DNA of 64,000 nt from a virus. How positions within the stretch are numbered: position 1 is the first letter of the stretch; each line of letters opens with the position of its first letter. The notes under the pieces are model-generated. The model searched no databases, was not told where the DNA came from, and saw only the letters and a program-made list of their open reading frames with translations. The position numbers and the translations under genes are program-made. The stretch spans positions 1 through 64,000 of IMG/VR virus record IMGVR_UViG_3300031578_000010, one strand, 5' to 3'. Below, one piece after another: positions 1 to 60,303 of this stretch.

Positions 1-2198
1 GCCTTCCCTAAAGCATCTATCGCAGGGATAAGAGGTTGGACAGCCGCTTCTATCTCTTGAATAATTATAGTAATAACAGCTCCTAATATCGTCTCCACCT
101 TCGCTATAAAATCAAAAGCAATCCGCAAAGGGAGCATAACGAACTTCATGAGGCCAACAAATAGCTTATGAATAGCTGATCCTCCGCCTTCCAATGAACT
201 AAATATCATGCCAATCGGCTTAAATATAGACCAAATGGCATCCTTCATTTGAATGAAAGCAGTTTTTACTCCGCCAATATTTTGTTTCCAAGCCACAGAG
301 AACATTTTTGCAAAGAATATTATCGGAGCAAGCATAGGAGACATAGCATATATTAATAATCCGTAAAATGCCTGTGCTGCGCCTTTGGCGTTCCAGAAAG
401 CTTTCGCCAACTTATAAAATACAACAGCGGCGATAACGATAATGCCTATTAAAAGAAGTATCGGGTGGGCGGCCATAACAGCAAAAAGACCTTTTATAGA
501 CCCCATTAAAATCCCTGATGCCCCGGCGGCGCCTCGCATCGCCAAACTCGACCCCACCATTGCCCTGGCAGATGCTATATTTGCCTTAATACCTCTCCAG
601 GTTAACATCGTGCCTATTCTTCTAATAATATTTTGTGCAAGCAAAACCGCATTATTTCCTATTGTAGATATCCTTTCCGCCCACGCTGCGGAAACAGCAG
701 CATAAGTCACTGACGTTCTTCTTGATATCCCTATTCCTAATATTTTCTCTAATATAATTCTTACCTTCATCTTCATATTCGTTATATCAGTTACAGTTAA
801 ATGTAATTGTTCTGCTATAGCCAATCCAAGGATTTGAGTTCTTCTTAATCCATCCATGCCGAATATTAATTTGGACATAATCAGGTAGGCGTATTTTGCT
901 TTTGTAATTAAAGCATATCTTATTTGAAGCGCCCAAAGAGCAGAAGTTAATAAAAGAATTCCTCCCGCCATCATGCTCAGGAACCCAACTATTGCAACTA
1001 ACCGAACTATTAAAGAAGTTGTTCTTGGAAATAATTGTGTCAAGGCTATTACTGTATTTAATAACTTATAGAAGAAACTAACAGCCATTTTCAAAGGGGA
1101 TAAAAGAGGAGACCCTAACTGTGTCGCCAAAGTCTGAACGGATCCCCAAACTAAAACGAGCCGGCCTTTTAATGGCTCCAAAACTTTCTTTCTAAATACT
1201 TCAGCCGTGCCAGCAGAATGTTTTAATTGGCTTTCTAATTCTGAAAATCTTTCTGCCCCCATTGCAACTACGGCATTATATGAGTTCATACCACGAGCGC
1301 CGAATATTGTCATAAGCGCTAACATTCTTTCTTTTTCTGTGGCCTTTGTTAACCTATGTTCTAAGTTAAATATTATAGTAGCAAGATCATTAAAATTTCC
1401 TTGTGCATCCCAAATATTAACATTTAAACTTTCCATCACCTTTACCGATCTCGGTTGAATCATTTGTCTTAAAGCAGACCGCAAAGTAGTAGCAGCAACG
1501 GAAGCCTCTGCCCCTGTATTCCTTAGTGCTCCCAATATAGATACAGTATGTTCAAATTCTTGGCCAGCAGCCCGGGCATTGCCCGCAACTCTTGCCAGCA
1601 TTACCTGAAGATCTCTTGCCTGAATATTTGTTAATTGAGTAGATCTCAATAATATATCTACAACCTTAGCAGAATCTTTGGCAGCAAACCCAAATCCTCT
1701 AACAGCGGCAGCGGCGCCCATTGCCGCCTCGCCAACGCCTAACTGCCCTAAAGAGCCTGTTGCTAAATCCAAAACAGGAAGTAGAGTTTTAATAGATTCC
1801 TCAGCATTAAAACCAGCAGTAGCCAAATCCTTTAATCCCTCTGTTGCCTGACGAGGCGACCACTGTGTTTTAATTCCCGCCTCTATTGCCGAAGAAGTTA
1901 AATCCTGGAACTGCCGAGTAGTAGGTGCCAAAACAGCACCAACTCTTGCCATTCCTTCTTCGAAATCCGCAGCACTTTTAGTCACCAAACCAAAAGCAAC
2001 GGCCGCCCCAGCGCCTCCTATAAATAATCCCATACCTGCTTTAGTAATAGTTCCAAGCCGCATTTGCGCAACTGCCGCCCTATCAGTTGCGACTTCCAAG
2101 GTTTTTAATGAGGCACTGGCGGCGGCAGCAGGACCGGATAGCCGGTTCGCCATAGTTAAAACAACACCCAAACCAAGAGCTGCCCCTATCCCGATCAT
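1..2198 (-). CDS. Phage tail tape measure protein (C-terminus cut by window edge)
   Basis: The frame is open from an ATG at 2198 to the window edge: about 732 residues are visible and the stop is missing. The N-terminal third is alanine/glycine-rich and fits the TP901/PhageMin_Tail tape-measure family (for example the SSAIEAG, TEGLKDLATAGF and LGQLGVGEAAMGAAAAV segments). The central and distal parts have several hydrophobic stretches typical of tape measures that insert in the host membrane. The protein sets tail length inside the tube and is ejected ahead of the DNA. The start overlaps the preceding stop (TAATG), and the gene directly follows the frameshifted chaperone pair, the canonical position. 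The family call is confident; the full length is unknown. Confidence 0.93.
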   Translation of the reverse strand, partial: MIGIGAALGLGVVLTMANRLSGPAAAASASLKTLEVATDRAAVAQMRLGTITKAGMGLFIGGAGAAVAFGLVTKSAADFEEGMARVGAVLAPTTRQFQDLTSSAIEAGIKTQWSPRQATEGLKDLATAGFNAEESIKTLLPVLDLATGSLGQLGVGEAAMGAAAAVRGFGFAAKDSAKVVDILLRSTQLTNIQARDLQVMLARVAGNARAAGQEFEHTVSILGALRNTGAEASVAATTLRSALRQMIQPRSVKVMESLNVNIWDAQGNFNDLATIIFNLEHRLTKATEKERMLALMTIFGARGMNSYNAVVAMGAERFSELESQLKHSAGTAEVFRKKVLEPLKGRLVLVWGSVQTLATQLGSPLLSPLKMAVSFFYKLLNTVIALTQLFPRTTSLIVRLVAIVGFLSMMAGGILLLTSALWALQIRYALITKAKYAYLIMSKLIFGMDGLRRTQILGLAIAEQLHLTVTDITNMKMKVRIILEKILGIGISRRTSVTYAAVSAAWAERISTIGNNAVLLAQNIIRRIGTMLTWRGIKANIASARAMVGSSLAMRGAAGASGILMGSIKGLFAVMAAHPILLLIGIIVIAAVVFYKLAKAFWNAKGAAQAFYGLLIYAMSPMLAPIIFFAKMFSVAWKQNIGGVKTAFIQMKDAIWSIFKPIGMIFSSLEGGGSAIHKLFVGLMKFVMLPLRIAFDFIAKVETILGAVITIIIQEIEAAVQPLIPAIDALGK

Positions 2199-40049: not shown

Positions 40050-40179
40050 TTCCAATTTTTTTTACATAGGCGGTCACGAGTTTACGGCTTCCGCTATCGC
40101 CGCCAAGTTATCTCTTGGTCAGATTTAGGGCCAGGCCCGAGGGTTACTCGATTTTATTTCCACAGGCGCAGCAATTTAG

Positions 40180-40563
40180 TGGAGGCGGCGGGAATCGAAC
40201 CCGCGTCCCGTCCGAGCATTCCCGCTCCGTCTACAATCATGTTCCTTTGTTCTGTATTCGGCACAAAGGAAAAGGCCTCTCCGGAACTTTCTCCGGATAA
40301 GTCAGCACCTATTTCTCGCATAATATCCGGCGCGAATACTATGCCAGTCTGAATCGCGGCGTTACTTCACAGAACTCAGACAATTCCATGAGCAACGGAA
40401 TGATCGTCAAGCAACCATTCTGGCGGCCATCTCGCTCCTGAAATTCAGCGGCGAGGCGACCTTCTTATTCTTGTTGGCACTTAGTTTTTTTGTGCTCCGT
40501 ATCGTGGTAGCATACGGATTGCAGGAAACGCTTCAACCCGCCGGTCGAGCCCTTTACGCCCCC
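40180..40563 (-). ncRNA. ssrA: Phage-encoded transfer-messenger RNA (tmRNA)
   Basis: The minus strand starts GGGGGCGTAAAGGGCTCGAC at 40563, the tmRNA 5' tRNA-like half with the D-loop-type CTCGACCGG. It ends at 40180 with the T arm GCGGGTTCGATTCCCGC and acceptor strand CGCCTCC plus discriminator A. Acceptor pairing GGGGGCG/CGCCUCC is complete with one G-U pair; CCA is not encoded. Total length 384 nt is typical. Between the halves lies the reading frame at 40407-40478, preceded by AGT as in known tmRNAs, and later GC-rich pseudoknot-like repeats. tmRNA rescues stalled ribosomes and tags nascent proteins. It starts 11 bases after the upstream gene, suggesting release by RNase P. Confidence 0.95.
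40407..40478 (-). other. tmRNA tag-peptide reading frame (23 aa)
   Basis: From resume codon GCC at 40478 the frame reads ANKNKKVASPLN, then FRSEMAARMVA and TGA at 40407. The resume codon context AAGT-GCC agrees with known tmRNAs. The start ANK is typical, but the end RMVA differs from the usual LAA/VAA degron. The tag is long and basic. Confidence 0.85.
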
Positions 40564-41650: not shown

Positions 41651-42535
41651 CTAACCCGGCGCAATAAATACAAGAGCATATTCATGTGTCCTGATAAGAT
41701 ATCTATTGCCTTTTCTCGCTGTACTAAAGCGAACCGAAACTCCGTTCATTTTTTTAGATAAAACAATTTCCTCTTTTAATTTAAATCCGATCTTTTTATG
41801 AAGCCGAGTTATATCGTGATTTAAACAAATAAGATCATTATCTTCTCTTAGCATTCCCACAACCCAGCACGAAACGGCGCCTGGCTTTAATATCCTGAGG
41901 CTTTCTTTTATAACTTTAAATATTCCTTTTAAAAATTCTTTATATGAAGTTGCCATAGATAAATCTTTTTCCCCTCCGCAATATTTCTCAAGGCCCCAAT
42001 ATGGCGGACAGGTAATAAGAAAATCCGCCGAATTAGTTTTAATATTCTTACAAATTGTAGCGTCTTGACATAAAATAGAAACTCTATCTTCTACTTCGCT
42101 CTTTATGGCCAATTTCCTTATCGCTTTACATTCTATTTCTCTTAATTCCAGGCCAACATATTTTAATCCATGTTTTGCGGCCATTATCGCCCGAGTTCCT
42201 CCTCCGGCGAAAGGATCGATACAGATACCTTTTTTCGGAGCATATATATTAAGTAGCCAATAAGCCACCGCAGGATTAAAAATACTTGGAACTATTCTCC
42301 GCGTCTTATCGCCAGTCTTTTCCTTCATCCAAGCTGATTTTCCGCCATGTTTTCTTTCATGAGGAAAGGCTGAATGACCGCCAATACGAGCAAAACCTAT
42401 ATCTCCAATTTCTTTTTTTAATTTCATTACAAAAGGATCGTTATAATTACAATCCCAAACAGATATAGGCCAAATCGGATACCAAAATTGTCCTGTTTTA
42501 AATTTGCCAACTTGTTTACCAAATAAGTCCTTCAT
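41651..42535 (-). CDS. DNA methyltransferase-like protein, paralogue 1
   Basis: This 294-aa protein has SAM-binding motif I DPFAGGGT (residues 107-114) and catalytic motif IV TCPPYW (175-180), in the order of phage N6-adenine/N4-cytosine methyltransferases with CPPY rather than the common N/D/SPPY. It shares an N-terminal DLFGxxVGxFKT block and the FNPAVAYWLLNIYAPKKGI block with the genes at 57783 and 58646. Target sequence unknown. It is 15 kb from the other two copies. Confidence 0.85.
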   Translation of the reverse strand: MKDLFGKQVGKFKTGQFWYPIWPISVWDCNYNDPFVMKLKKEIGDIGFARIGGHSAFPHERKHGGKSAWMKEKTGDKTRRIVPSIFNPAVAYWLLNIYAPKKGICIDPFAGGGTRAIMAAKHGLKYVGLELREIECKAIRKLAIKSEVEDRVSILCQDATICKNIKTNSADFLITCPPYWGLEKYCGGEKDLSMATSYKEFLKGIFKVIKESLRILKPGAVSCWVVGMLREDNDLICLNHDITRLHKKIGFKLKEEIVLSKKMNGVSVRFSTARKGNRYLIRTHEYALVFIAPG

Positions 42536-43326: not shown

Positions 43327-44244
43327 TCACACAAGAGTTTTCTTAACTAATAAACCCCTTTGTAATCTTGAACCAAATTTATCTAAGTATTCTTCGAAAG
43401 TAATGCTATTTCTAAAAACAGACCCGGTTGCAGAATAAAACCTAACCAAAGGCGTTATTACACGTCTATCCCAGCCTTTCGGAATATATTCTCCTAACTT
43501 CTCAATATTCAAAGGGCGATATCTCATAGGAAATGGCAATACGCCAAATTTCCTCAATAATTCAAGTCTATACAAAGTTTCTTCTAATGTATCTTTATAA
43601 CCAAATAAAACATATACTCGAATATCTCGTGCCTTCCATCCCGCTCTTATAGCTATTTTTATTGCATTTATTACCTGGTCTTCCTCTTTAATAGAATCAA
43701 AAGCGAACCTCAATATACATTTAATTTCTGCAAATTTGCTGGCTATTGTTTTCGTAAACCTACAGGCATCTAAGCCTTGATTAAAATCAACTAAATTAAA
43801 TCTCTTGCACGAATCTATAACTTTCCAAATATGCTTTTTAGATGCTGCAAGTAAATTATTATCACAAATTATTGGCGCGGGCTTAAATTTTATGATTTCT
43901 TTTATGTCTCCTTCCAATCTTGGGACCGCACAAAATCCACAGCTATTCGGGCAACCCCTTGTTGTAAATGTTGCATTTGGATTATATAAATTTAAAGGTG
44001 AAACACCCCTTGGCGCATCCTCTTCTACATTTGCAAGGCCTTCGAACTTCTGTCGAGCCAAAACAGCTCCAGGACCGCCAACAATTATTTTTTTAGGAGG
44101 AAAAAAAGACCCCAACGAAGCTTTTATTTTTCTTATCGTCTTTTTTACAAGCCAAGTAAAAGGAACAGAAATATATAAAGAATCTTTTTGCTCCCAACTT
44201 ATCGGCCCAAGCTTCCATTTATTTTCGCGTTTTAGATTATTCAT
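43327..44244 (-). CDS. Radical-SAM protein of unknown substrate
   Basis: This 305-aa protein has TTRGCPNSCGFCAVP, the CxxxCxxC [4Fe-4S] motif of radical-SAM enzymes, at about residues 93-107. The following barrel-like sequence (IICDNNLLAASKKHIWKVID, CILRFAFDSIKEEDQV) fits the family. It directly follows the large terminase (start at its stop). Substrate unknown; queuosine-type, tRNA or nucleobase modifications are possible classes. Confidence 0.8.
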   Translation of the reverse strand: MNNLKRENKWKLGPISWEQKDSLYISVPFTWLVKKTIRKIKASLGSFFPPKKIIVGGPGAVLARQKFEGLANVEEDAPRGVSPLNLYNPNATFTTRGCPNSCGFCAVPRLEGDIKEIIKFKPAPIICDNNLLAASKKHIWKVIDSCKRFNLVDFNQGLDACRFTKTIASKFAEIKCILRFAFDSIKEEDQVINAIKIAIRAGWKARDIRVYVLFGYKDTLEETLYRLELLRKFGVLPFPMRYRPLNIEKLGEYIPKGWDRRVITPLVRFYSATGSVFRNSITFEEYLDKFGSRLQRGLLVKKTLV

Positions 44245-45911
44245 TAAAATACCATTACTTCGGCGTCGTTATCTTCCGCCTGTTGTTTTAATTGAGCATC
44301 TGCGGCGGCCCTTGCAATTTCTCTTCCAAAATGAATAAAGAAATCAAATCGCAATGCCGCGAGCATTAAGGAATCTGGTCCGTGATCTTCTGCCTTAATT
44401 GGTTTGCCAAATTCGTCTTTCTTATAATTAACTAATTGCCGATATAATATTCTATTAGACCGCACATTTAAAATCCTTAATCTACTCGAATTAATATATC
44501 TTTCCAGGTTTTGAATTCCTGTTTCTTTATATTTATTAAATGCAACGCTTTCGACAGTAAATCCAGACTTTCTTAAATACATTATCCCATAACTTTGTTC
44601 ACTATCCCCGTATACAAGAAAATCGCCAAAACGAATTCTTATTGCCTTTAATGTACTAACAATATAATCTAAATCCCTTCCGACTGAAAAATCAGAAAAA
44701 GGAACTATTAAAGCGTTGCTCCCTTTTATTGCCAAAGTAATAGCGCACTGTTTTGATGTTCCAAAATCAATCCCAACCGATCTTTTCGTATCCTGCAAGT
44801 TAGGAATTATAACTCTATCAACTAAACTTCTTCTTAATTTCTTTGTATTATAAACTTTTGATTGTGTTTCAGGGCGACAACATTCAAATTCAACCTTCCA
44901 GTTTTGCCCTTTTATTTCCGCCTTTTTCTTTATCTTCAAAGCCTGTTCGAAACTAAGCCAGCCATCGGTTTTTCTGGCTATTCCATCGCATCCAAAATAT
45001 CTTACTTTAATTATGTTCCCTTCCGAATCTTTTTTAATTTTCTTACGAGTGAAAACACATTTCTTACAATCAATATCCCTTTCACATTTGGCGAAACAGG
45101 AAAAAATATTCCATTTAACTCGAACAAAATCTAACGCCTCTGCTTGATCCCACGTATCCGCAAAATGCCCAACCGGCAAATGAAATGTCGACAAATATAG
45201 AATAACGAAATCTTCTTGTGTTATTACTGAATTTGTCGCCTGCAAAATATTATCATCTTTATATCTTTCTTTCTGGCAAACCTCATCGGCAACGAATCCT
45301 TCCGGATGTTTCCCTCTCGTTGCATTTTGTGAATTAGGAATAACTTTTAAATTTACACCATTTTTTAAATTAGTCCTGTGCATTAAAGGTTCGCCATCAA
45401 GCAGCCTTTCTTTTAATGATGGCAAACATTCCCAAAATGCTGTAATATAACTATAAATTTCTAATGCTTGTTCTTGCGATCCTGCAAGGTCTGAAAAAGA
45501 AAGTTTTCTCCAAACCATACAAATGAAAATAAGAACGGCGGCTATAAGCGATTTCCCTCCGCCTCTATTTGCCCAAACAATTATCGCCTGAACAGTATTT
45601 CCCTTCTTATCTTTTCTTGCAAAAAATAAATCCGCCAAAACCTTTAAATGTTTCTTAATAAGTTTAATTGTTTGTTTCTCACCTCGTTTTATAAACCACA
45701 AATTATTTTCAACAAAATCCTTTATCGCGTTTTCTTGCCTTCTATAAAAAACCTTTCTTGTTTCTTCCGGATTCCTTTTTAAATTAAAATCATAAAATTC
45801 AATATTAGGGTCTAAGTTCCGATTCTGCTTGAGCTGTTCCCACTGTTCCACTATTTGGCCCAAGACCGTATTCGGCGAGTTTTCTGAAAATTCGTTCCTT
45901 AATTTTTTCAT
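44244..45911 (-). CDS. Terminase large subunit
   Basis: This protein of 555 residues has an ATPase domain (ANRGGGKS Walker A; GFVADE Walker B) and a C-terminal RNase H-like nuclease (GIDFGTS, LVYGDSEQ, HGPDSLMLAA). Between them is a Cys cluster SCFAKCERDIDCKKC, an uncommon insertion for the family. It packages DNA into the prohead. ATG at 45911 is preferred (AAGAGATTAATA) over 45938; either way it overlaps the small terminase by more than 100 bases. Confidence 0.92.
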   Translation of the reverse strand: MKKLRNEFSENSPNTVLGQIVEQWEQLKQNRNLDPNIEFYDFNLKRNPEETRKVFYRRQENAIKDFVENNLWFIKRGEKQTIKLIKKHLKVLADLFFARKDKKGNTVQAIIVWANRGGGKSLIAAVLIFICMVWRKLSFSDLAGSQEQALEIYSYITAFWECLPSLKERLLDGEPLMHRTNLKNGVNLKVIPNSQNATRGKHPEGFVADEVCQKERYKDDNILQATNSVITQEDFVILYLSTFHLPVGHFADTWDQAEALDFVRVKWNIFSCFAKCERDIDCKKCVFTRKKIKKDSEGNIIKVRYFGCDGIARKTDGWLSFEQALKIKKKAEIKGQNWKVEFECCRPETQSKVYNTKKLRRSLVDRVIIPNLQDTKRSVGIDFGTSKQCAITLAIKGSNALIVPFSDFSVGRDLDYIVSTLKAIRIRFGDFLVYGDSEQSYGIMYLRKSGFTVESVAFNKYKETGIQNLERYINSSRLRILNVRSNRILYRQLVNYKKDEFGKPIKAEDHGPDSLMLAALRFDFFIHFGREIARAAADAQLKQQAEDNDAEVMVF

Positions 45912-46359
45912 TATTAATCTCTTGATCCAAAACCCCAATAATTACAGAAACAGTTTGTTGAAGAACATGAATAGAAATAGTATGTTTAACGCCATGCTCT
46001 AATTTATCCAGCCTTTCGATATCCTGCGAAATAGAATTTAATAATTGGGAAGCATTATTTATTGTTGCAATATTTAATCGTTTTTTCTCTGCCGATCGCC
46101 TTGCAAATAACTCATCCAGCAATGCCCGTTTTAATGCAATATTCACGCGCAAATTGCAAAGGTTTTCATTACCTAAATATTTCGCAACTCTTTTAGCGAG
46201 TTTTTTGCGCAAAACCTTAGAATGTAGCCCCGTTTTTATAGGGCGCCCACCAGGATGTTTTTTGGAGCCGGCGCCATGGACTTGGCAAACGGAGAAACCT
46301 TCAACGGCGCGACGTCTGCATTGTTGGCCTGTCGCCTTACATTTTGCGTGGCATTGCAT
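45805..46359 (-). CDS. Terminase small subunit
   Basis: This 184-aa protein starts with a Cys/His zinc site CHAKCKATGQQCRRRAVEG, then CQVHGAG, GGRPIKTGLHSKV, as in many phage small terminases, then helices. It recognises phage DNA for packaging and overlaps the start of the large subunit by 107 bases. Ribosome site AAGGGAGCG. Confidence 0.85.
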   Translation of the reverse strand: MQCHAKCKATGQQCRRRAVEGFSVCQVHGAGSKKHPGGRPIKTGLHSKVLRKKLAKRVAKYLGNENLCNLRVNIALKRALLDELFARRSAEKKRLNIATINNASQLLNSISQDIERLDKLEHGVKHTISIHVLQQTVSVIIGVLDQEINNEKIKERIFRKLAEYGLGPNSGTVGTAQAESELRP

Positions 46360-51996: not shown

Positions 51997-53046
51997 TTAT
52001 GCGGTTTCTAAAAGCAGGCCGGCAAGGCTTTCCATTTCAGTCCTTTTTATATTATCCGTTATTTTTCCTGCAACAAATGCAAAGGCGAAAGCAGCGCCGA
52101 GAAGCGTCGGCTCCTCGTTCTTATACCTTTCAAGAACTCCTTCCTCGAATTTCTTCGAGAACTTATATTTTATCCGAATCTTCTCTAACCAAGCCGGGAA
52201 TTTATCCACAGGAAGTGCTCTCTTTCTGGCCTTTTCTGCCATGGTTGATACTCCGCCCATTGCGCCCTCCAATTTAACGCAAAGCGCGTCTTCCATTTCA
52301 ATTTGTAGCCTGGACGCGGGCGCCTCGTCCTTCCCCAATTTATCAAAGCGCGCCCTAAAATAGCGCTTTAATGAATTTCCCAACATAATCCGCGGCAGAA
52401 TATAAGATGAAGGACTCTCGCGATATATCGCCAAGTCAAGTTTCGGCGAATGAAGGGCAAATTCAGAATTAGAGGCGATTATTCCTGCAAAATTCCCTCC
52501 CAAATTTTCGAACCCCTTCGTGAAAACTCGATTTGGCAGGATAACCCGGATGATCATTTCGTTATCCTGGAAAGCGGAAGATTCGATAATGATCTCTTCT
52601 TTCAAGACTGTTATGAAAACGCCAAGAAATAACTCGTGTGTGAAACGGATATCCTTGCCGAAAATAAATCCCCGAACGAATTTGCCCAGCATGTCTATTC
52701 CCCACTTCTCTTCCTTCGGCAAGGAAGCGAGGAACCAATTAAAGATATCCGCTCGGATATCAGGCGACAATGCCTTATAGAAATCCTCCGGAATTTTGAA
52801 TCTTTTAATCAACTGGCTGAAGGCCAGAGGAGATATCTTACATATCTCGGGGCTCTTTTTCCCAATGATGAAATCAGGATAAACTAAATTATTGGACGGA
52901 GATACACGGAGGTTAGAGGCTTTCCCGCTTACCTCCTTAATTCCTTTGTGCGCAGCCTGAAGAAGATTTCTTATTTCCGCGAACTCTTTCTTGTTGTCCA
53001 CCTTCTTTGCTTCCTGCTCCTTTGTTACCGTTGTTTCTTCCGACAT
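51997..53046 (-). CDS. DUF932-like phage protein
   Basis: This protein of 349 residues has a helix-rich middle (KISPLAFSQLIKRFKIPEDFYKAL, DIRADIFNWFLASLPK, RFVRG-type FVRGFIFGKDIRFT) with the pattern of DUF932/TIGR03299 phage-plasmid proteins. Function is unknown. Codons are clearly GC-richer than in flanking genes. ATG at 53046 follows AGGAAGGAGCACACC; the in-frame start at 53085 is less likely. Confidence 0.6.
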   Translation of the reverse strand: MSEETTVTKEQEAKKVDNKKEFAEIRNLLQAAHKGIKEVSGKASNLRVSPSNNLVYPDFIIGKKSPEICKISPLAFSQLIKRFKIPEDFYKALSPDIRADIFNWFLASLPKEEKWGIDMLGKFVRGFIFGKDIRFTHELFLGVFITVLKEEIIIESSAFQDNEMIIRVILPNRVFTKGFENLGGNFAGIIASNSEFALHSPKLDLAIYRESPSSYILPRIMLGNSLKRYFRARFDKLGKDEAPASRLQIEMEDALCVKLEGAMGGVSTMAEKARKRALPVDKFPAWLEKIRIKYKFSKKFEEGVLERYKNEEPTLLGAAFAFAFVAGKITDNIKRTEMESLAGLLLETA

Positions 53047-54057: not shown

Positions 54058-54735
54058 CTACCAATTAAGCTCGTCCTCGTCGTCGTCGTCATCGTCTTCA
54101 CTTTTCTTGCCCTTTTTCTTTTTTCCGCCTTTCTTCCCTTTTTTGTTTTTCTTGCTCTTTTTCTTGTTTCTTTTCTTGGATTTCTTTTCCTCCTCCTCTT
54201 CCTCGTCGTCTTCATCCTCGTCGTCGTCGTCATCGTCGTCCTCTTCCTCGTCGTCGTCATCGTCGTCGTCTTCATCTTCTTCTTCCTCGTCGTCATCCCC
54301 ATCTTCGTCATCGTCGTCATCGTCAGTTTCTTCCGGCTCCTCGCGATCCTTCTTTCCCTTTTTCAAAGAAAAGACCTCGTCGACTTTACACTTCGGTGTG
54401 CCATCGTCGTTCACGCTATCCGTATGAACGATTGAAATTCGGACCTTTTTCCCTTGCAGAATAGAAATGTCGAACTTCCCTGTTTTGAATTTCATCCCGC
54501 CAAGAAGCCGTTTGAGCCACCTGCCCGTTTTATTTTTTGGGCGGGCATCGAAAGGAGACCATGCTCGCATTTCTACTCCCTTGTGTTTCCCTTTCAGTAT
54601 TTTAAAAGACCATTTTAATTGAATACCGTACTTTCCATCCTCCTTTTCTATCTTGGTTATTTGGGCAAGATAGATATCCTCCGGAATTGAAAACCCGGCG
54701 CTTTTCGGTGACATAGGAATTCTGAGGCGCTTCAT
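54058..54735 (-). CDS. Probable ssDNA-binding protein with acidic and basic low-complexity tail
   Basis: This 225-aa protein has a globular N-terminal 125 residues with a DUF669-like pattern (EDIYLAQITKIEKEDGKYGIQLKWSFKIL, WLKRLLGGM, GKKVRISIVHT) that suggests an OB-type DNA-binding domain. Then comes a run of about 55 Asp/Glu residues, a Lys-rich block and a final acidic patch. Acidic C-terminal tails are typical of phage and bacterial SSBs. It sits between RecA and the clamp loader, consistent with replication and recombination. The opposite-strand Ser-rich and Thr/Met-rich frames here are shadows of the GAC/GAT repeats. Confidence 0.65.
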   Translation of the reverse strand: MKRLRIPMSPKSAGFSIPEDIYLAQITKIEKEDGKYGIQLKWSFKILKGKHKGVEMRAWSPFDARPKNKTGRWLKRLLGGMKFKTGKFDISILQGKKVRISIVHTDSVNDDGTPKCKVDEVFSLKKGKKDREEPEETDDDDDDEDGDDDEEEEDEDDDDDDDEEEDDDDDDDEDEDDEEEEEEKKSKKRNKKKSKKNKKGKKGGKKKKGKKSEDDDDDDEDELNW

Positions 54736-55016
54736 TTCTTGCTCCTTTTCTTCTCTTTCCTTGCCTTGATTTCCTTTATATAGTCAGCAATGTCCTCCTG
54801 GACTTGCTTCCGACATTCTGCTATTAATCTCTTCGATACAAGTCTTATTTTCTTTTTATTCTTTAACTTATCATTCGTCAAAACAATAGTTTGTTCATAG
54901 AAAGCATAAAAACGTGTCGTATGAAAACCGCTAATAAGCAAATTCTCTTCGAAAGCCCTCCTAACAACAAATATTTTTTTAGTTAATCTTTCTAAAGAAT
55001 TTAATATATTTGGCAT
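54732..55016 (-). CDS. Small basic protein in the replication cluster, unknown
   Basis: This 94-aa protein is helical and Lys/Arg-rich (LERLTKKIFVVRRAFEENLL, LKNKKKIRLVSKRLIAECRK). It overlaps the clamp loader by one base and the SSB-like gene by four. It may be a replication accessory. Family not recognised. Confidence 0.65.
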   Translation of the reverse strand: MPNILNSLERLTKKIFVVRRAFEENLLISGFHTTRFYAFYEQTIVLTNDKLKNKKKIRLVSKRLIAECRKQVQEDIADYIKEIKARKEKKRSKK

Positions 55017-55876
55017 TACTTCCTCCTCTGATTTTTCTTTATCTTTATAAATGCAGAAATTAATTGCAACGATTTGACACAGCCCAGTCGCATCCTCATA
55101 TCACATTCAGCAAGATTTAAAACGGCAACCATATTTCTATTTTCTATCGCTTCATCTGTCATTACTTTAAAAAGATATTCGGGCTCCATCTTATAAGCGT
55201 AATTTGCAAACTCACCTATATTTAAAGAGAAAACATCCTCGATTATTTCATCATTTAAATCGGCGCCATTTTTCTTTGCTTCTAATAAATGCAATAAACG
55301 TCGGGCATCTCCATTAGATTCCATAATTATCAATTTAAATTGGTTTTTCTTTATCTTAATATTCTCCACTTGAATAACTCGTTTTGCTAAGACCTCCATA
55401 TCCTTTTTATCAATCTTTTTAAAATGACAAATAGAGCAACGGGAAATGATCGGCTCTATAACCTTGTTTATATAATTACAAGATAAAATAAAACGGCAAT
55501 TATCGGAATATATCTCCATCATCCTTCTAAGAGCATGTTGGGCATCCTTTGTTATTTCGCTGGCTTCATCCAAAAATACTATTTTATATTTTCCAAAACC
55601 TTTAGTCCTGGCAAATTCCTTTACCTTCCCTCTAATAACATCAATTCCGCGTTCTGAACTCGCGTTTAATTCCAGAAGAGAATTCTTCCAATCTGCTCCG
55701 AATATTTCTCTTGCAATTATTATCGCCACAGATGTTTTGCCCGTTCCAGCATCTCCTGAGAATAAAAGGTTGGGGATAATATGTTCTTTTTCAATAAACT
55801 TTTTTATTACTTTTATAATAGAGTCCTGGCCTATAACTTCATCAAATTTATTTGGTCTATATTTCTCTATAAACAT
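55016..55876 (-). CDS. Clamp loader ATPase (RFC small subunit / T4 gp44-like)
   Basis: This 286-aa protein reads like archaeal RFC small subunits and T4 gp44: [16 protein letters not shown], Walker [10 protein letters not shown] (41-49), [15 protein letters not shown], Walker B IVFLDE (99-104), [23 protein letters not shown], and the SRC motif (145-147). It loads the clamp onto primed DNA. Bacterial DnaX/HolB features are absent, unlike the polymerase, which is bacterial DnaE. It sits with the collar-only partner at 57226. Confidence 0.92.
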
Positions 55877-55887
55877 CTCAACCTCGT

Positions 55888-56340
55888 TTAAATTAAGGAA
55901 CGATCAGGTTTTTTTATCAGTATAACTCCTTTAGTTTTCTTCCCCCATACAACCTTTTGCCCAGTTAAATTAAAGCCGAATTTCTCAAAAAACCTAATCG
56001 ATCTTTTGTTCTTTGCCATGGCCTCCGTCCATATTACTTTATCTCGATAAATAATAAGGAACTTTTTTAAAACCCTCCCAGCGTTTCCATCCCCCGGCAT
56101 CTTAGTAACAATTTCAGATATATGGCAATCCCCACAATGACGCTTAACACCATGAAACCTTGTATTTACTTTATATATTCGATAAATTATTACAACATTA
56201 TCTTGAAAAATTACTTGATTCCTTTTTATCGGATCCTCTAATTTTGCAGCATAATATCTCTTTATATACGGAAATATATTATCATATTTCAGAAATATTT
56301 TCTTTATCTTATCTAAATCATTAATAGTTGCGAATTTCAT
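55888..56340 (-). CDS. GNAT-family N-acetyltransferase
   Basis: This 150-aa protein has GNAT features: [13 protein letters not shown] as motif A region and [17 protein letters not shown] as motif B. An HCGDCH segment adds possible metal binding. ATG at 56340 has AGGGGT correctly spaced. It is downstream of and nearly overlapping a PLP enzyme. Mom-like DNA modification is a possible role but not shown. Confidence 0.75.
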
Positions 56341-56342
56341 CG

Positions 56343-57236
56343 TCAACCCCTAATGATATTGGCGTTGCCAACTACCCAAAAACAAACCTTGTCCTTCTTC
56401 TTGTCAATCAATTTCTCTCTAATCATAAAATCATAGGCCTTAGATTCATATATATTATCCAATTCAAATCCAACATTTATATGTAAAGCCTTAGAATAGG
56501 AATATTTTCCACTATAATATTTAAACTTATAACAAAATCTTGGCAAACCAATTCCAGAATATATAACAGGCCTTCTATCATGACCGAAAGGTTGAATGGC
56601 TATTATCTTCTTTAATTTAAGCTTATATCTTAGAACACCCGACATAATTCCTGAAAATGTTAATCCGCTCCCTACAATAACAACCATCGTATCTATAAAC
56701 TCAGGGATATTTTTAACTTGGTGCGCTGTTACATCGATTATTGACTTCCGATCCGAAGATACGTTCATCCCAAAAGCAACCAAAAACATAGGGCGCTCTT
56801 TAGCAAGAGTTTTTAACCTGCTATATAGAACATTATTAAACCCATAATGTTCAGATACAACCTTTATCTCAGAGCCCAACTTCTTAGCAATACGAATAGT
56901 CCGATAATTCGATAAAGCCTTTTCAACCGTTGTCCCTCCAATTCCAATAATAGACTTAAAACCTAACTCCTTCGCAACCCTCGAAACTATTGTTCCTTGT
57001 GGCGAAGATACCGAAGTTGCTGTTGCTACCGTTCTATTAAAAGAAGAAATTATCTGTTTCCTATTAGATAGTAGCAAGGTGAGACACTGGCGAACTTTCC
57101 CGCCGTTTATTTGGTTATATAATTTGTGACAAGATCTAAATCGCCCAAACGGCTTAAATAGATCATCTCGCTTAAAATAAATTCCATCATATTCCTCAAC
57201 AGGAGTTAAATCATATATTCCGTATTTATTTTTCAT
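56343..57236 (-). CDS. PLP-dependent enzyme, fold type II
   Basis: This 297-aa protein has features of fold-type II PLP enzymes (cysteine synthase/ACC deaminase group): LTPVEEYDGIYFKRDDLF, NGGKVRQ with probable PLP lysine at K47, SSPQGTIVSRVAKELGF, IIGIGG, and the phosphate-loop-like VVIVGSGLTFSGIM. Substrate unknown. It lies between a clamp-loader collar protein and the GNAT gene, so nucleotide or DNA modification is plausible. Confidence 0.8.
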   Translation of the reverse strand: MKNKYGIYDLTPVEEYDGIYFKRDDLFKPFGRFRSCHKLYNQINGGKVRQCLTLLLSNRKQIISSFNRTVATATSVSSPQGTIVSRVAKELGFKSIIGIGGTTVEKALSNYRTIRIAKKLGSEIKVVSEHYGFNNVLYSRLKTLAKERPMFLVAFGMNVSSDRKSIIDVTAHQVKNIPEFIDTMVVIVGSGLTFSGIMSGVLRYKLKLKKIIAIQPFGHDRRPVIYSGIGLPRFCYKFKYYSGKYSYSKALHINVGFELDNIYESKAYDFMIREKLIDKKKDKVCFWVVGNANIIRG

Positions 57237-57783
57237 TTTGACCCCTTGTAGGAAAACTATAATAAAACCTCATAAAGGGGCTATATTTCGGATTAAAACA
57301 AGACAATAAAAAATGTACTATCCTTCTTTCAGTATAATATAATAACTGATCTATTCTATTTATTAAATTAATATTCTCTAAATCGTTTTCATCCAGGTTA
57401 CTTATAATCCACTTCAATAAAACCTCCAACGGAGGTTTCTCTCTTTCTAAGGAATTAAAAACCTGTTTTCTATTCTTATTTGAAAAGATCAAAGAGAGTG
57501 TATGGAAAATATTGCTTCCTTCTGTCTTTCCATAATAAAGAACTTTATTAACCAAATGTTTGACTTTTTGGATTCTATCTTCTTTCGCTGTTCTTAGATC
57601 AATATCACAGGAACTTCTTTTTATTATAGAATTTAATTTCCTTATATCTAATCTCCCAGCATCCAAATCTATTATTATCTTAGATTTAATTAACTGTTTT
57701 GCCAACATCTTATTTAGAGTAATTTTGTCTAAAGATATTGCATCTTTAAAGATCTCTTTATCGCAAACAAGCAACCTAATCAT
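57226..57783 (-). CDS. Probable clamp loader collar-only subunit (gp62/RFC-large C-terminal-like)
   Basis: This 185-aa protein lacks an ATPase domain. Residues about 85-165 follow the RFC collar pattern: SNIFHTLSLIFSNKNRKQVF, PPLEVLLKWIISNLDENDLE, INRIDQLLYYTERRIVHFLL. T4 clamp loader has gp44 plus the ATPase-less gp62 (187 aa), and this fits that layout with the RFC-small-like gene at 55016. Its ATG overlaps the preceding methyltransferase stop. Assignment is by pattern, not by strong similarity. Confidence 0.55.
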   Translation of the reverse strand: MIRLLVCDKEIFKDAISLDKITLNKMLAKQLIKSKIIIDLDAGRLDIRKLNSIIKRSSCDIDLRTAKEDRIQKVKHLVNKVLYYGKTEGSNIFHTLSLIFSNKNRKQVFNSLEREKPPLEVLLKWIISNLDENDLENINLINRIDQLLYYTERRIVHFLLSCFNPKYSPFMRFYYSFPTRGQNEK

Positions 57784-58646
57784 TATATTCTCTGAAATAT
57801 TTGAGCATATTCGTGGACTCGAACTAAATTATGATTTCCTTTTGTGAACATCCCGATTCGCTGTATAGCCGGCGTTCCCCTAAAAATAATAGGAATCTCT
57901 TCCAACATTTTAAAACCTGTTCGGTGCATTCTTGCAGTGTCATGATTCATTCCCTGTAAATATCCATCCAAATCTCTAACCAAACCAATAACCCAAACTG
58001 AAATAGCCCCTTTCTTTAATATTCTATAACTCTCGTTTATTGATTTCTGAATTCCTTTATTAAACTCATCGTATGTTCCTAACATTGATAAATCTTTCTT
58101 TCCTCCTCGATAGTGTTCCACATTCCAATAAGGCGGGCAAGTAATAAGAAAGTCTGCAATTTCATCCTCAACCATTGGAACAGATCTTGAATCGCCACAT
58201 ATTATCTTAACTTTTTTAGATACCTTATTTCTTTTCGCCCTCCGCAAAATTGCCTCACATTCGTTCTTTCTAATTTCAATTCCAATATAATCCATTCCAT
58301 GGCGGGCCGCCATAATTGCCCTTGTCCCTCCCCCAGCGAAAGGATCGTAACATATCCCCTTCTTGGGAGCGTATCTATTAAAAATCCAATACGCTGTCGC
58401 TGGATTAAAAACACTTTGAGAATTCCTATAACAAGATTTCTTAGATTGATTTTCTGGCTGAAGGCAAGCCGCTCTTTCGGATCCAAAATAGGCGGAATCC
58501 CCAATATGCCTTTTCTGCCTTCTAACCTCTGGATCAGATAAATATGACTCCCAAACTGTAAATGGCGGAGCCGGCAATCTGCCCACAGATGTTTTAAAAT
58601 CGCCAACTATCTGGCCAAATAGGTCTTTAACTTGTTTTCTTGACAT
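57783..58646 (-). CDS. DNA methyltransferase-like protein, paralogue 2
   Basis: This 287-aa protein has DPFAGGGTRAIMAARHG (motif I) and DFLITCPPYW (motif IV), as in the genes at 41651 and 58646. N-terminal DLFGQIVGDFKT and SVFNPATAYWIFNRYAPKKGI blocks are shared. It directly follows paralogue 3 in the operon. Sequence differences in the distal third could give each copy its own target. Confidence 0.85.
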   Translation of the reverse strand: MSRKQVKDLFGQIVGDFKTSVGRLPAPPFTVWESYLSDPEVRRQKRHIGDSAYFGSERAACLQPENQSKKSCYRNSQSVFNPATAYWIFNRYAPKKGICYDPFAGGGTRAIMAARHGMDYIGIEIRKNECEAILRRAKRNKVSKKVKIICGDSRSVPMVEDEIADFLITCPPYWNVEHYRGGKKDLSMLGTYDEFNKGIQKSINESYRILKKGAISVWVIGLVRDLDGYLQGMNHDTARMHRTGFKMLEEIPIIFRGTPAIQRIGMFTKGNHNLVRVHEYAQIFQRI

Positions 58647-59560
58647 TATTTCTTCTCCGGTTTTTTAAATATAAGAACATATTCATGAGAACGAATAAGA
58701 AACTTCCTGCCTTTATCAAAATTCCCCACTCGCCTTAAAGATCCGGTGTTCTTAATATGTAGAATAATTTCTTCTTTAATTAAAAATCCAGCTTTCCGAT
58801 GCATTGATGTCACATCATGGTTCAAACAAATAAGACTTCCATTTTTATGTCTATGTAATCCTACAACCCAGCAAGATATTGATCCAGGTTTCAAAATTCT
58901 AAAAGTTTCGCGAACAACTTTAAATAAATCTCCTTTGAATTCACTATATGATTCTTTCATAGATAAATCAGTAACTCCGCCCTCATATTTTTCAAGGTTC
59001 CAATAAGGAGGGCAAGTTATAAGAAAATCTGCTTTAGAATTTGTGACCTTCCGAGGATATCTTGCATCGCCATGAATTATTTTAACCCGATCAGAAAAAC
59101 CCGCATTATCCACTCTTTTTTCGACCGCTATACATTCTTCTTTTCTTATTTCATATCCTATATATTTTAATCCATGCCGAGCCGCCATTATAGCCCTTGT
59201 ACCTCCGCCAGCGAAGGGGTCAAAACATATCCCCTTTTTAGGAGCATATAAATTTAATAACCAATAAGCAATTGCTGGATTAAATACACTCGCGCCATAT
59301 TGATAACCAAATGTTCCATCAACCGTTTCATGCCGGGCTCGTTTCTCTGCCTCTTTAAAACTAAATTTATATCTACTGGTATTCGTGCCCTGCGATCTCG
59401 ACTTAGCATCTTTAACTGCCCCGATATCCCCCACCATCTTTTTAAATTTGCGGACCTGAGGATCACTCATATCGCAATCCCAAACGGTGATAGGCCAGAT
59501 ACCATATCTCTGGCGCATCGTTTTAAATTCGCCAACGGCTTCACCAAATAAATCTTTCAC
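58646..59560 (-). CDS. DNA methyltransferase-like protein, paralogue 3
   Basis: This 304-aa protein has the same motifs (DPFAGGGTRAI, DFLITCPPYWNLEKY) and the DLFGEAVGEFKT N-terminal block. The ATG overlaps the sliding-clamp stop (ATGA). Together with paralogue 2 it is in the replication operon. Confidence 0.85.
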   Translation of the reverse strand: MKDLFGEAVGEFKTMRQRYGIWPITVWDCDMSDPQVRKFKKMVGDIGAVKDAKSRSQGTNTSRYKFSFKEAEKRARHETVDGTFGYQYGASVFNPAIAYWLLNLYAPKKGICFDPFAGGGTRAIMAARHGLKYIGYEIRKEECIAVEKRVDNAGFSDRVKIIHGDARYPRKVTNSKADFLITCPPYWNLEKYEGGVTDLSMKESYSEFKGDLFKVVRETFRILKPGSISCWVVGLHRHKNGSLICLNHDVTSMHRKAGFLIKEEIILHIKNTGSLRRVGNFDKGRKFLIRSHEYVLIFKKPEKK

Positions 59561-60303
59561 TTTCCCTCCTCCTCTTTCGTCATGAGCAAATAAAGAGAAG
59601 AATATTTATCGCCAAACCTAATCAACATAGGAGGGTCTTTCTCCAAGAATATTTTAACCTTTCCTTCCAAGGATTTAAAGATCTCTTTTATACCATGCCC
59701 AAAACAAACTGACATCTCTTTCTTTAATACAGGTTTTTTTATTTGAAGGTTTGTCGTTATTGAATTTTTTCCTCTTTTTACTTTTGCTTTTACTCCCGCC
59801 TTATCAATTAAGATATAATATGTATGCTCATCGAGAATATCAGCATCCCCTACTAATTCTTTTAATTGTTCCGCCCTCACAATAAAATTATTTGTTTTAT
59901 ATACGACCTTTAAGGCAGGAGTTTTAATGGAGTTCTTCTCGAATTTGATGGCATCCACGTTAGCAAAACTCTCTATATTTTTCAAGGGAGTCACTTCGAA
60001 ACGACCTATTTTCCTCTTCTGTTTTATAATCAGCTGCTTTTCATCGGCAGAAATGGAAACAGTATCAGAAAAGCGAGTCAATATTTTCATGAACTGAGCA
60101 ATATCCCCAATAGTAAATATTCCATGTTTCTGAATTTGGGCTTCTGTGCTTACTCGAAAGAAAATTGCCCTCGATGTATCCGTTCCTTTCGTTGTTAACT
60201 GCCCATTCTTAGCGGATATAACGCAATCCAGCACCAACCCATCAAGATGAGCTTGTGAAAGGAAACTGATAAAGCTGCCATTATCTATTTCGAAAAGCGC
60301 CAT
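59557..60303 (-). CDS. Sliding clamp (PCNA / T4 gp45-like)
   Basis: This 248-aa protein has PCNA pattern: N-terminal FEIDNGSFISFLSQAHLDGLV, IFTIGDIAQFMKILTRF, and a C-terminal VKIFLEKDPPMLIRFGDKYSSLYLLMT that resembles the PCNA end (PL.I.F......YLLAP). Length suits a two-domain trimeric clamp rather than three-domain bacterial DnaN (about 366 aa). It sits upstream of the methyltransferases and two genes after the DnaE-type polymerase. Confidence 0.8.
   Translation of the reverse strand: MALFEIDNGSFISFLSQAHLDGLVLDCVISAKNGQLTTKGTDTSRAIFFRVSTEAQIQKHGIFTIGDIAQFMKILTRFSDTVSISADEKQLIIKQKRKIGRFEVTPLKNIESFANVDAIKFEKNSIKTPALKVVYKTNNFIVRAEQLKELVGDADILDEHTYYILIDKAGVKAKVKRGKNSITTNLQIKKPVLKKEMSVCFGHGIKEIFKSLEGKVKIFLEKDPPMLIRFGDKYSSLYLLMTKEEEGK

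Follow-up and report, generated by a model that had tools for sequence, protein, structure and literature searches.

Methyltransferases, a PLP enzyme and a GNAT-fold protein in a phage replication operon: a candidate DNA modification module in which 5-hydroxymethyluracil machinery was not detected

Phage PLP enzymes are tied to thymidine hypermodification starting from 5-hydroxymethyluracil. The viral record IMGVR_UViG_3300031578_000010, whose positions 1 to 64,000 make up the window analyzed here (the whole stretch of 64,000 nucleotides), presents such an enzyme in other company: two methyltransferase (MTase) paralogues, the PLP enzyme and a GNAT-fold protein lie between the clamp and the clamp loader in one tight leftward replication operon. 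What could these genes be doing together, and do they belong to the known thymidine pathway? An earlier note on this DNA had read them as a candidate DNA modification pathway, and every gene that it placed in the operon was found again at the same position and on the minus strand. The genes, together with a third MTase paralogue farther along the window, are as follows.

59557..60303, minus strand: sliding clamp, given for context (phrog_947, E 1.6e-5)
58646..59560, minus strand: MT2, DNA methyltransferase of the N6_N4_Mtase family with permuted motif order (Pfam, PHROG, motifs)
57783..58646, minus strand: MT1, DNA methyltransferase (Pfam, PHROG; 49% identity with MT2)
57226..57783, minus strand: 185-aa protein, weakly similar to the RFC large subunit (NCBIfam E 0.0011, far below cut-off)
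56343..57236, minus strand: fold-type II PLP enzyme, phrog_3650 (PALP, PHROG, AlphaFold2 model)
55888..56346, minus strand: GNAT-fold protein, by its modeled fold; likely start ATG at 56340
55016..55876, minus strand: clamp loader ATPase, given for context (phrog_168, E 1.6e-56)
41651..42535, minus strand: MT3, third methyltransferase paralogue (N6_N4_Mtase match, paralogue identity)

With the first possible start codon assumed for each gene, 11 of the 12 junctions between the polymerase and the gene at 51997 overlap and the remaining one is an 11-base gap, so the genes form one operon-like run. The full phage record spans 90 kb and carries a terminal repeat of 221 bp, on account of which it is probably complete.

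All three MTases score well above the N6_N4_Mtase (PF01555) cut-off of 26.7 bits (MT1 54.2, MT2 76.0, MT3 69.9), and MT3 is 47 and 53% identical to the other two. MT2 carries the motif I sequence DPFAGGGTR followed by CPPY, a permuted order, and CPPY is present in all three proteins. With scores above the curated cut-off, a SAM motif I and a PPY motif, they belong to the N6_N4 DNA methyltransferases, consistent with the earlier description of two SAM-dependent DNA methyltransferase paralogues in the operon.

The PLP gene falls under the Pfam cut-off for PALP (31.7 bits, E 1.3e-7, against 35 bits) and matches phrog_3650 at E 4.3e-33, with tblastn matches to phage Cygsa01 (E 6e-20) and Vibrio phage 207E48.1 (2e-19). 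Its AlphaFold2 model (mean pLDDT 91.8) has the fold of D-cysteine desulfhydrase and ACC deaminase, with a best Z of 24.9 and an rmsd of 2.7 over 264 residues; together with the phrog_3650 match, this bears out the fold-type II assignment made before. K47, invariant across 32 viral relatives, is presumably the Schiff-base lysine, and by comparison with ACC deaminase we take S78-P79-Q80 and G189-S190 to be active-site loops; we likewise assume that the lysine and a carboxylate loop correspond to those of D-cysteine desulfhydrase and ACC deaminase. The listed chains of these two enzymes share the fold at only 15-22% identity, and the curated families score far below cut-off (TIGR01275, 19.5 vs 289.4 bits; NF010646, 18.7 vs 550). 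The family to which the window protein belongs is instead largely viral and rare in cellular genomes: in two scans covering one genome per species across about 85,000 species, relatives made up 0 of 64 and 1 of 55 pattern matches, and the sole bacterial relative found overlaps an MTase gene.

Among viral proteins, homologues of the PLP enzyme include those of the Ackermannviridae, which are hypermodified-thymidine phages, and that of phage Montesquieu; the Montesquieu PLP gene overlaps one annotated as aGPT-Pplase2, and a gene annotated as hydroxymethylase lies in the same region. A copy in SN1 sits within an M6-type cassette and falls in the same family tree, though the window protein gives no direct match to it. 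The closest relative (L093, 47% identity) lies in a 20.8-kb locus in which neither MTase profile matches. Used as the sole query, the window protein returned 0 relatives in the PLP scan; the scans were therefore run with small alignments, as a ten-sequence PLP alignment was too divergent for scanning.

By sequence, the GNAT gene reaches no Pfam cut-off (FR47, 15.9 vs 22.1; Acetyltransf_1, 14.7 vs 20.7); the acetyltransferase of the earlier note is recovered through its model. That model, built on an alignment of sequences with 13-16% identity, reaches a pLDDT of 73.9, matches GNAT enzymes at a best Foldseek E of 2.2e-6, and has 143 PDB matches at E<=0.001, of which the 50 listed are all acetyltransferases by title; as modeled, the protein has the GNAT fold. 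As sole query it found no relatives in viral contigs and none in phage genomes, where matches stood at E 0.1 or worse and those listed lay under tail sheath genes. A profile of GNAT-2OG-oxygenase fusions, applied to 3495 genes, picked out the window GNAT as its only non-member match (E 1.5e-4; 18.9 bits, against 6.9 bits for the best of 1000 shuffles). The resemblance is to the N-terminal domain of these fusions and is weak by sequence, at 13-16% identity and an hhalign probability of 58%. The fusion frequently, though not universally, adjoins PLP genes in the relatives; the window phage has the GNAT part only, with no 2OG oxygenase of the fusion type (Asp_Arg_Hydrox) found in the 90-kb record. 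Mu Mom is a DNA modification enzyme with a GNAT fold, which the window protein shares according to its model. Among the sequence and structural matches listed for the window GNAT, there was no Mom model or chain, and the structural matches listed are ordinary acetyltransferases, which neither show nor exclude a link to Mom.

Does the phage, then, encode the known 5-hmdU thymidine pathway? For five signature families, searches of the 90-kb record gave no match at E<=1: the thymidylate synthase-like hydroxymethylase (TS, PF00303), the 5-hmdU DNA kinase/aGPT-Pplase1 (HMUDK_hel, PF18723), the amino acid:DNA transferase (ADDT/aGPT-Pplase2, PF18724), the P-loop nucleotide kinase (Ploopntkinase3, PF18751) and, as an alternative entry, TET/JBP (Tet_JBP, PF12851). 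The PF00303 model found its target in 9 of 14 control genomes and also in SN1 and Montesquieu; PF18724 misses the Montesquieu copy as well, so that a very divergent ADDT could hide. Comparison of reference proteins with the ORFs of the window phage gave the same picture, with those for PLP and MTase matching and those for TS, aGPT, kinase and Nmad5 not. We therefore reject a canonical 5-hmdU pathway in this phage, as the five signature families searched for are absent from the record. Relative to the ViI-like (Ackermannviridae) and M6-like systems, represented by PP35 ORF169 and SN1_023, the window enzyme is of the same PLP family with conserved active-site motifs; unlike in those systems, no hydroxymethylase, 5-hmdU kinase, amino acid:DNA transferase or P-loop kinase was detected, and the PLP enzyme is accompanied by N6_N4-type MTases and a GNAT.

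This alternative company recurs. We define an MTase-linked PLP module as a CPPY-type N6_N4 MTase with a PLP-family gene no more than 2 kb away on the same strand and with no canonical genes, an arrangement that the window shows at 56343-59560. A scan with the MTase yielded a PLP ORF in 20 of 80 kept viral loci, always within 1.7 kb of the MTase and in 16 of the 20 directly overlapping it; after dereplication at 85%, PLP was present in 15 of 63 MTase clusters, with 11 PLP clusters. A scan with the GNAT-2OG-oxygenase fusion gave a PLP neighbor in 56 of 80 loci (23 of 30 clusters once dereplicated) and an MTase neighbor in 41 of 80. Canonical genes were found in 0/20 and 0/80 of these loci, which extended 6-10 kb from the match; canonical genes farther off would show up only in the 14 records searched whole. 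Neither ADDT nor TS occurred in any of 11 other records picked for having a PLP gene without canonical neighbors (0/11 each). Starting from PLP, enrichment was not significant, with MTases making up 7 of 335 genes near PLP vs 1 of 326 far genes (p 0.069). Of 47 dereplicated PLP loci, 10 were in neither context, although at least one of these (L149) is identical to the phiA8-29 protein.

The MTase-PLP pair is also repeated in three isolated phages, Pam4, AlanGrant and Mae-JY30, in whose sequenced genomes neither an amino acid:DNA transferase nor a thymidylate-synthase-like gene was found. In Pam4 the two are joined in one 829-aa protein, whose MTase is split in two by the inserted PLP domain. 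Given these neighborhood counts, the grouping of MTase, PLP and GNAT genes is not a matter of chance. In the PLP tree, whose reference rows were labeled manually, the MTase-linked label changes 6 times, at least 5 of the changes being forced by well-supported branches, which implies that a single PLP family is used in both contexts; the switch positions of AG2, L015 and Pam4 lie on long branches and are flagged as unsure. The window PLP falls outside a 42-row, mostly canonical clade, and the best reading is that it fits the second, MTase-linked context instead of the 5-hmdU pathway.

The MTases themselves say little about the chemistry. PLP-linked and unlinked MTases do not differ in motif I or motif IV, and CPPY and an Arg after motif I are common to both, meaning that MTase sequence offers no evidence for a non-methyl donor. 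Inspection by eye of the neighbors of unlinked MTases brought out no recurrent modification enzyme.

Two published phage systems invite comparison. In the CmoX/CmoY carboxymethylcytosine hypermodification of Synechococcus phage S-B43 (PMC12783734), a phage DNA MTase, in many cases close to ParB-domain proteins, first attaches a handle, which another enzyme then elaborates, a two-stage logic like that which we consider here. CmoX has an SPPC motif and works with CmoA-made carboxy-SAM and an AMP-forming ligase, whereas the window offers CPPY N6_N4-type MTases, a PLP enzyme and a GNAT. Phage ParB-MTase fusions are surveyed in a second report (PMC12704722), in whose main text the words "PLP" and "pyridoxal" never occur; AlanGrant, Pam4 and Mae-JY30 each have an MTase of the window's subfamily with a ParB-like region in front of it. 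These ParB-like regions were called from record annotation and mutual BLAST similarity, with no ParB domain found in them by Pfam, and the window MTases, unlike those of the three phages, are without such a region.

We consider it probable that the MTases, the PLP enzyme and the GNAT constitute a phage DNA-modification module without 5-hydroxymethyluracil machinery, in which the PLP enzyme acts on DNA. The module rests on homology, operon linkage, recurrence and the one-polypeptide fusion in a relative; from these we infer its reactions, the modified base and its biological purpose. In one unlikely alternative, the PLP enzyme would convert a free small molecule into a modified S-adenosylmethionine or comparable donor, whose altered group an MTase would then transfer to DNA. 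A donor-maker and its transferase would be in keeping with the close coupling of MTase and PLP genes and with their fusion in Pam4, and the abstract of Iyer et al. 2013 is said to mention modified SAM derivatives; CmoX, a phage DNA MTase using carboxy-SAM, supplies a precedent (PMC12783734). Such a role sits poorly with the best-known relatives of the PLP family, which belong to 5-hmdU pathways. There the PLP enzyme reportedly acts on DNA-tethered amino acids (Lee 2018 and 2021). CmoA, the maker of carboxy-SAM, was moreover not found in the window phage, where TIGR00740, which we take to be the CmoA model, gave 0 matches.

Quite improbable, in our estimate, is a chance sharing of the operon by independent genes, namely plain anti-restriction methylases, a metabolic PLP enzyme of the D-cysteine desulfhydrase/ACC deaminase type and an unrelated acetyltransferase. 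The fold of the PLP enzyme is what this would predict, and a PLP ORF is missing from 60 of the 80 MTase loci, so that the MTase can function on its own and may be no more than an ordinary methylase; yet different PLP clades are recurrently coupled with these MTases and with GNAT-oxygenase fusions, Pam4 carries its PLP insertion inside an MTase, the single cellular relative of this rare family is itself MTase-linked, and the NCBIfam score is far under the cellular-enzyme cut-off. Family membership is likewise the point in favor of a remnant or host-assisted 5-hmdU thymidine pathway, with upstream genes lost or supplied by the host or a co-infecting phage. We regard this as highly improbable, given five pathway families without a match in a probably complete record, the lack of ADDT and TS in all 11 other records searched and the position of the window PLP outside the mostly canonical clade.

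Taking the module, then, as one that modifies DNA directly, a CPPY-type MTase would first act on a base in DNA, by methylation or, more speculatively, by transferring the amino-acid part of SAM to it. The PLP enzyme could next act on the amino-acid group attached there, decarboxylation and elimination being two examples of what it might do; its relatives are part of pathways in which amino acids are modified once they are joined to phage DNA. The GNAT might then acylate the exposed amine, probably capping the amino-acid group. Co-expression with the clamp and clamp loader would bring these enzymes to phage DNA as it replicates, and their product would shield this DNA from nucleases. No MTase-linked PLP enzyme has a chemistry known to us, and the specific SAM-derived amino-acid route is possible but doubtful. 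Equally tentative is its extension to a second widespread phage route to amino-acid-derived DNA bases, in which a methyltransferase-fold enzyme would place the SAM aminocarboxypropyl group, in lieu of methyl, on an exocyclic base amine, and the DNA-tethered amino acid would be remodeled by the PLP enzyme, the GNAT and, in many relatives, a 2OG oxygenase, the PLP enzyme having been exchanged repeatedly with the 5-hmdU route.

The candidate DNA modification pathway of the earlier note is thus well founded in PLP homology to the Ackermannviridae and in the recurrence of PLP, MTase and GNAT-type genes, even as searches of the record did not turn up the established 5-hmdU pathway; the amino-acid-derived base and the evasion of restriction that it envisaged are conjectural. 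The open literature searched, a set apart from Iyer 2013 and Lee 2018/2021, describes no MTase-PLP link in the parts covered. Because the same PLP family recurs with N6_N4-type MTases and GNAT in phages where ADDT and TS were not detected, these data point to an unrecognized class of phage DNA modification, which could be a reason for the odd partners of some phage "methylases," explain some restriction resistance and yield new DNA-labeling enzymes.

Two further genes of the window were considered for a part in modification. The radical-SAM gene at 43327-44244 gave no match on comparison with the rSAM of the M6-type cassette. The 185-aa gene stands at the position where phage Montesquieu carries aGPT-Pplase2. 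It has no Pfam match and no tblastn match in phage records, and its candidacy as a divergent amino acid:DNA transferase found no support; its weak RFC-like match speaks for a role in replication, and it is probably a replication protein rather than a modification enzyme.

The fold-type II PLP enzyme of the window (56343-57236, minus strand) belongs to a family shared with the 5-hmdU thymidine hypermodification pathway of the ViI/M6 type, and it is encoded here close to DNA methyltransferases (MTases) without the canonical genes of that pathway. None of PF00303, PF18723, PF18724, PF18751 and PF12851 had a match at E<=1 anywhere in the 90,431-base virus record, whose first 64 kb form the window, and protein queries from the canonical phages SN1, Montesquieu and Cygsa01 found matches among the record's ORFs only with the Montesquieu and Cygsa01 PLP proteins. 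Searches for CmoA and Asp_Arg_Hydrox in the record were likewise negative. A 221-base direct repeat (220 identical) lies at both record ends (window 1-221 and the last 221 bases), and the record, for which the family search output holds no completeness estimate, is probably complete; the gene absences are therefore informative, though a divergent copy can escape detection. Whole-record searches of 14 records found ADDT (aGPT-Pplase2) in two, SN1 and the record of viral locus L109, and the TS-like hydroxymethylase (TS) in two, SN1 and Montesquieu; neither gene was found by such searches in the 11 records selected because their PLP gene lacks canonical neighbours.

The earlier note placed the MTases, PLP enzyme and GNAT among the clamp and clamp-loader genes of one leftward operon, and this arrangement is borne out: 11 of the 12 junctions in the run below overlap, with 11 bases at the remaining one (first possible start codons).

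Gene order of the replication operon, minus strand, 63886 to 51997
From 63886, DNA polymerase III alpha (Pfam)
163-aa gene
Clamp
Two MTases
185-aa gene
56343-57236, PLP enzyme
55888-56346, GNAT
Clamp loader
94-aa gene
54058-54735, charged-tail gene
RecA
362-aa gene, to 51997

The 185-aa gene matches only the RFC large subunit (E 0.0011, 17.8 bits where the cut-off is 280), and we therefore assign it cautiously to replication. The gene at 54058-54735, whose long tail is rich in D/E and in K, matches phrog_14876 (E 1.5e-4), and its product resembles a single-strand DNA-binding protein by eye. Elsewhere, a Uracil-DNA-glycosylase superfamily gene (record 73020-73763; L002:9020-9763) lies close to primase- and DnaB-like helicase genes, and ARAGORN placed a tmRNA with a 23-residue tag at window 40179-40563.

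The PLP protein is PALP-like, yet scores 31.7 bits against the Pfam cut-off of 35; it matches phrog_3650 (E 4.3e-33), and its confident AlphaFold2 model (91.8) has D-cysteine desulfhydrase and ACC deaminase as structural matches (1j0a, Z 24.9). Residues P12, K22-R23, G45, K47, R49, P79, Q173, G189, Y263-E264, K266, W287 and G290 are kept in a 32-member viral alignment, and Q80 is not conserved in loci L094, L101, L102 and L185. K47 and the SPQ loop presumably play the roles that ACC-deaminase chemistry assigns to them. By tblastn against 50,697 phage records, the protein matched 206 at E<=0.01, and three of the matches (207E48.1, phiA8-29 and Maynard) are Ackermannviridae by classification. 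In PMC6336734, the PLP enzyme ORF169 of phage PP35 is assigned to a 5-hmdU transformation that all Ackermannviridae conserve, along with a hydroxymethyltransferase, kinases and aGPT-Pplases; we infer that our matches, not matched by accession, are this same protein. The M6-type cassette also includes a PLP enzyme, according to PMC9476957. The SN1 copy gave no BLAST match with the window PLP protein as query and is linked to it via intermediate family members, and the Montesquieu homologue overlaps an annotated aGPT-Pplase2 gene. The family is largely viral, because two scans of GTDB species genomes, using patterns different from those of the viral scans, gave relatives in 0 of 64 and 1 of 55 pattern matches. 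The only relative from a bacterial genome, L268, lies on a contig of an Ignavibacteria MAG, where its gene overlaps that of an MTase and is followed by a second MTase-like gene. A 325-aa protein that lacks a convincing match to any family (L093:10850-11827) is encoded immediately downstream of the closest PLP relative and looks by eye like GNAT-type aminoacyltransferases.

Coupling of PLP and MTase genes recurs in other viruses. Our PLP scans yielded 91 PLP genes in 47 clusters, whose context within four genes was canonical in 31, MTase only in five, both in one and neither in ten, the canonical neighbours being identified as Tet_JBP plus ADDT and as Ploopntkinase3 (Pfam, one member per cluster). 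MTases were commoner near PLP genes without canonical genes (5/15 vs 1/32, Fisher p 0.009), and near-versus-far enrichment around PLP genes fell short of significance (7/335 vs 1/326, p 0.069). When loci were collected from the MTase side, 20 of the best 80 (of at least 572 relatives among at least 600 pattern matches) held a PLP-family ORF, in every case on the same strand and within 1.7 kb of the MTase, with direct overlap in 16 (stop-to-stop frames); TS, aGPT1, ADDT/TET and kinase genes were found in none of these 20 loci. Dereplication at 85% identity left a PLP ORF in 15 of 63 MTase clusters, the 20 ORFs forming 11 clusters. The coupling extends to fusion in the isolated Pseudanabaena phage Pam4 (L007:6789-9278), where a single 829-aa protein starts with a ParB-like region and continues with an MTase N-half (match at aa 323-388), the PLP domain and an MTase C-half (match at about aa 660-806). 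This PLP domain inside a circularly permuted N6_N4-type MTase makes the protein a candidate DNA-modifying enzyme. AlanGrant has a ParB-like-plus-MTase gene and then a PLP gene with overlapping ends, and Mae-JY30 has consecutive ParB-like, MTase and PLP genes; the ParB-like label in all three phages comes from record annotation and mutual BLAST similarity, Pfam finding no ParB domain in these regions.

The window GNAT scores under Pfam cut-offs, has a GNAT-like predicted structure and retains a G-D-G loop where acetyl-CoA normally binds. Directly upstream of PLP in L094, L095 and L102, relatives close to the window PLP, is a 370-400-aa protein that fuses a GNAT-like domain to an Asp_Arg_Hydrox 2OG oxygenase, the latter detected by Pfam in the copies of L095, L060 and L087; the proteins of L094, L102 and L071 can be aligned from end to end. 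The window GNAT lines up colinearly with the N-terminal part of the fusion (58% probability by hhalign, 18.9 bits by hmmsearch) and was the only match outside the fusion family when the fusion profile was run against 3495 genes (E 1.5e-4); 1000 shuffles reached at most 6.9 bits. With a query free of PLP sequence, the best 80 of 251 fusion relatives included 56 loci with a PLP gene, in two PLP clusters (39 and 17 loci), and 41 with an MTase-profile match within a few genes; none of the 80 held TS, aGPT1, ADDT/TET or kinase genes. Three of the 80 share their id with a locus of the PLP scans, and some further ones come from contigs already represented there. After dereplication, at least one member neighboured a PLP gene in 23 of 30 fusion clusters, and every member did in 19. 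The fusion gene (e.g. L095:8827-10026) often comes right behind SMC/SbcC-like and metallophosphatase genes (one example of each identified by Pfam).

In a tree of 73 PLP domains, the window PLP groups with L093 and close to L190, and it falls outside a clade of 42 rows, 36 of them canonical. MTase linkage requires six changes on this tree, at least five of them forced, with MTase-scan rows counted as MTase-linked and the ten reference rows labelled manually (canonical for Ackermannviridae, Cygsa01, SN1 and Montesquieu; MTase-linked for window, AlanGrant, Mae-JY30 and Pam4). Context seems to switch in both directions, AlanGrant falling within the canonical clade and SN1 with MTase-linked L015, though AlanGrant (row AG2), L015 and Pam4 are long branches of unsure placement.

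Family membership, gene coupling, the fusion in a relative and the missing canonical genes are observed; that the PLP enzyme acts on DNA, or on a donor for DNA, we infer. The 5-hmdU route is reported (Lee 2018 and 2021) to hand its PLP enzyme an amino acid attached to DNA; because the transferase for that is missing in the searched MTase-linked phages, the simplest new amino-acid source would be SAM itself, either by transfer of its aminocarboxypropyl group or in the form of a modified donor. Nothing found in the MTase sequences points to a non-methyl donor, CPPY and the Arg that follows motif I being common to MTases with and without a PLP partner, so plain methylation alongside a separate PLP enzyme may instead account for the module. 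Phage DNA hypermodification as such is already known, as are ParB-MTase fusions of phages (PMC12704722) and a phage MTase installing a handle from carboxy-SAM (PMC12783734). In the open-access papers searched, most of them by title and opening of the abstract, we found no description of an MTase-PLP(-GNAT) module that lacks the 5-hmdU genes.

The two MTases of the operon belong to the N6_N4_Mtase family (54.2 and 76.0 bits; Pfam cut-off 26.7) and share 49% identity, and a third paralogue at 41651-42535 is 47 and 53% identical to them. A radical-SAM gene (window 43327-44244; phrog_9298) lies 0.8 kb upstream of this third MTase and adjoins a gene at 44244-45938 that is terminase-like by eye.
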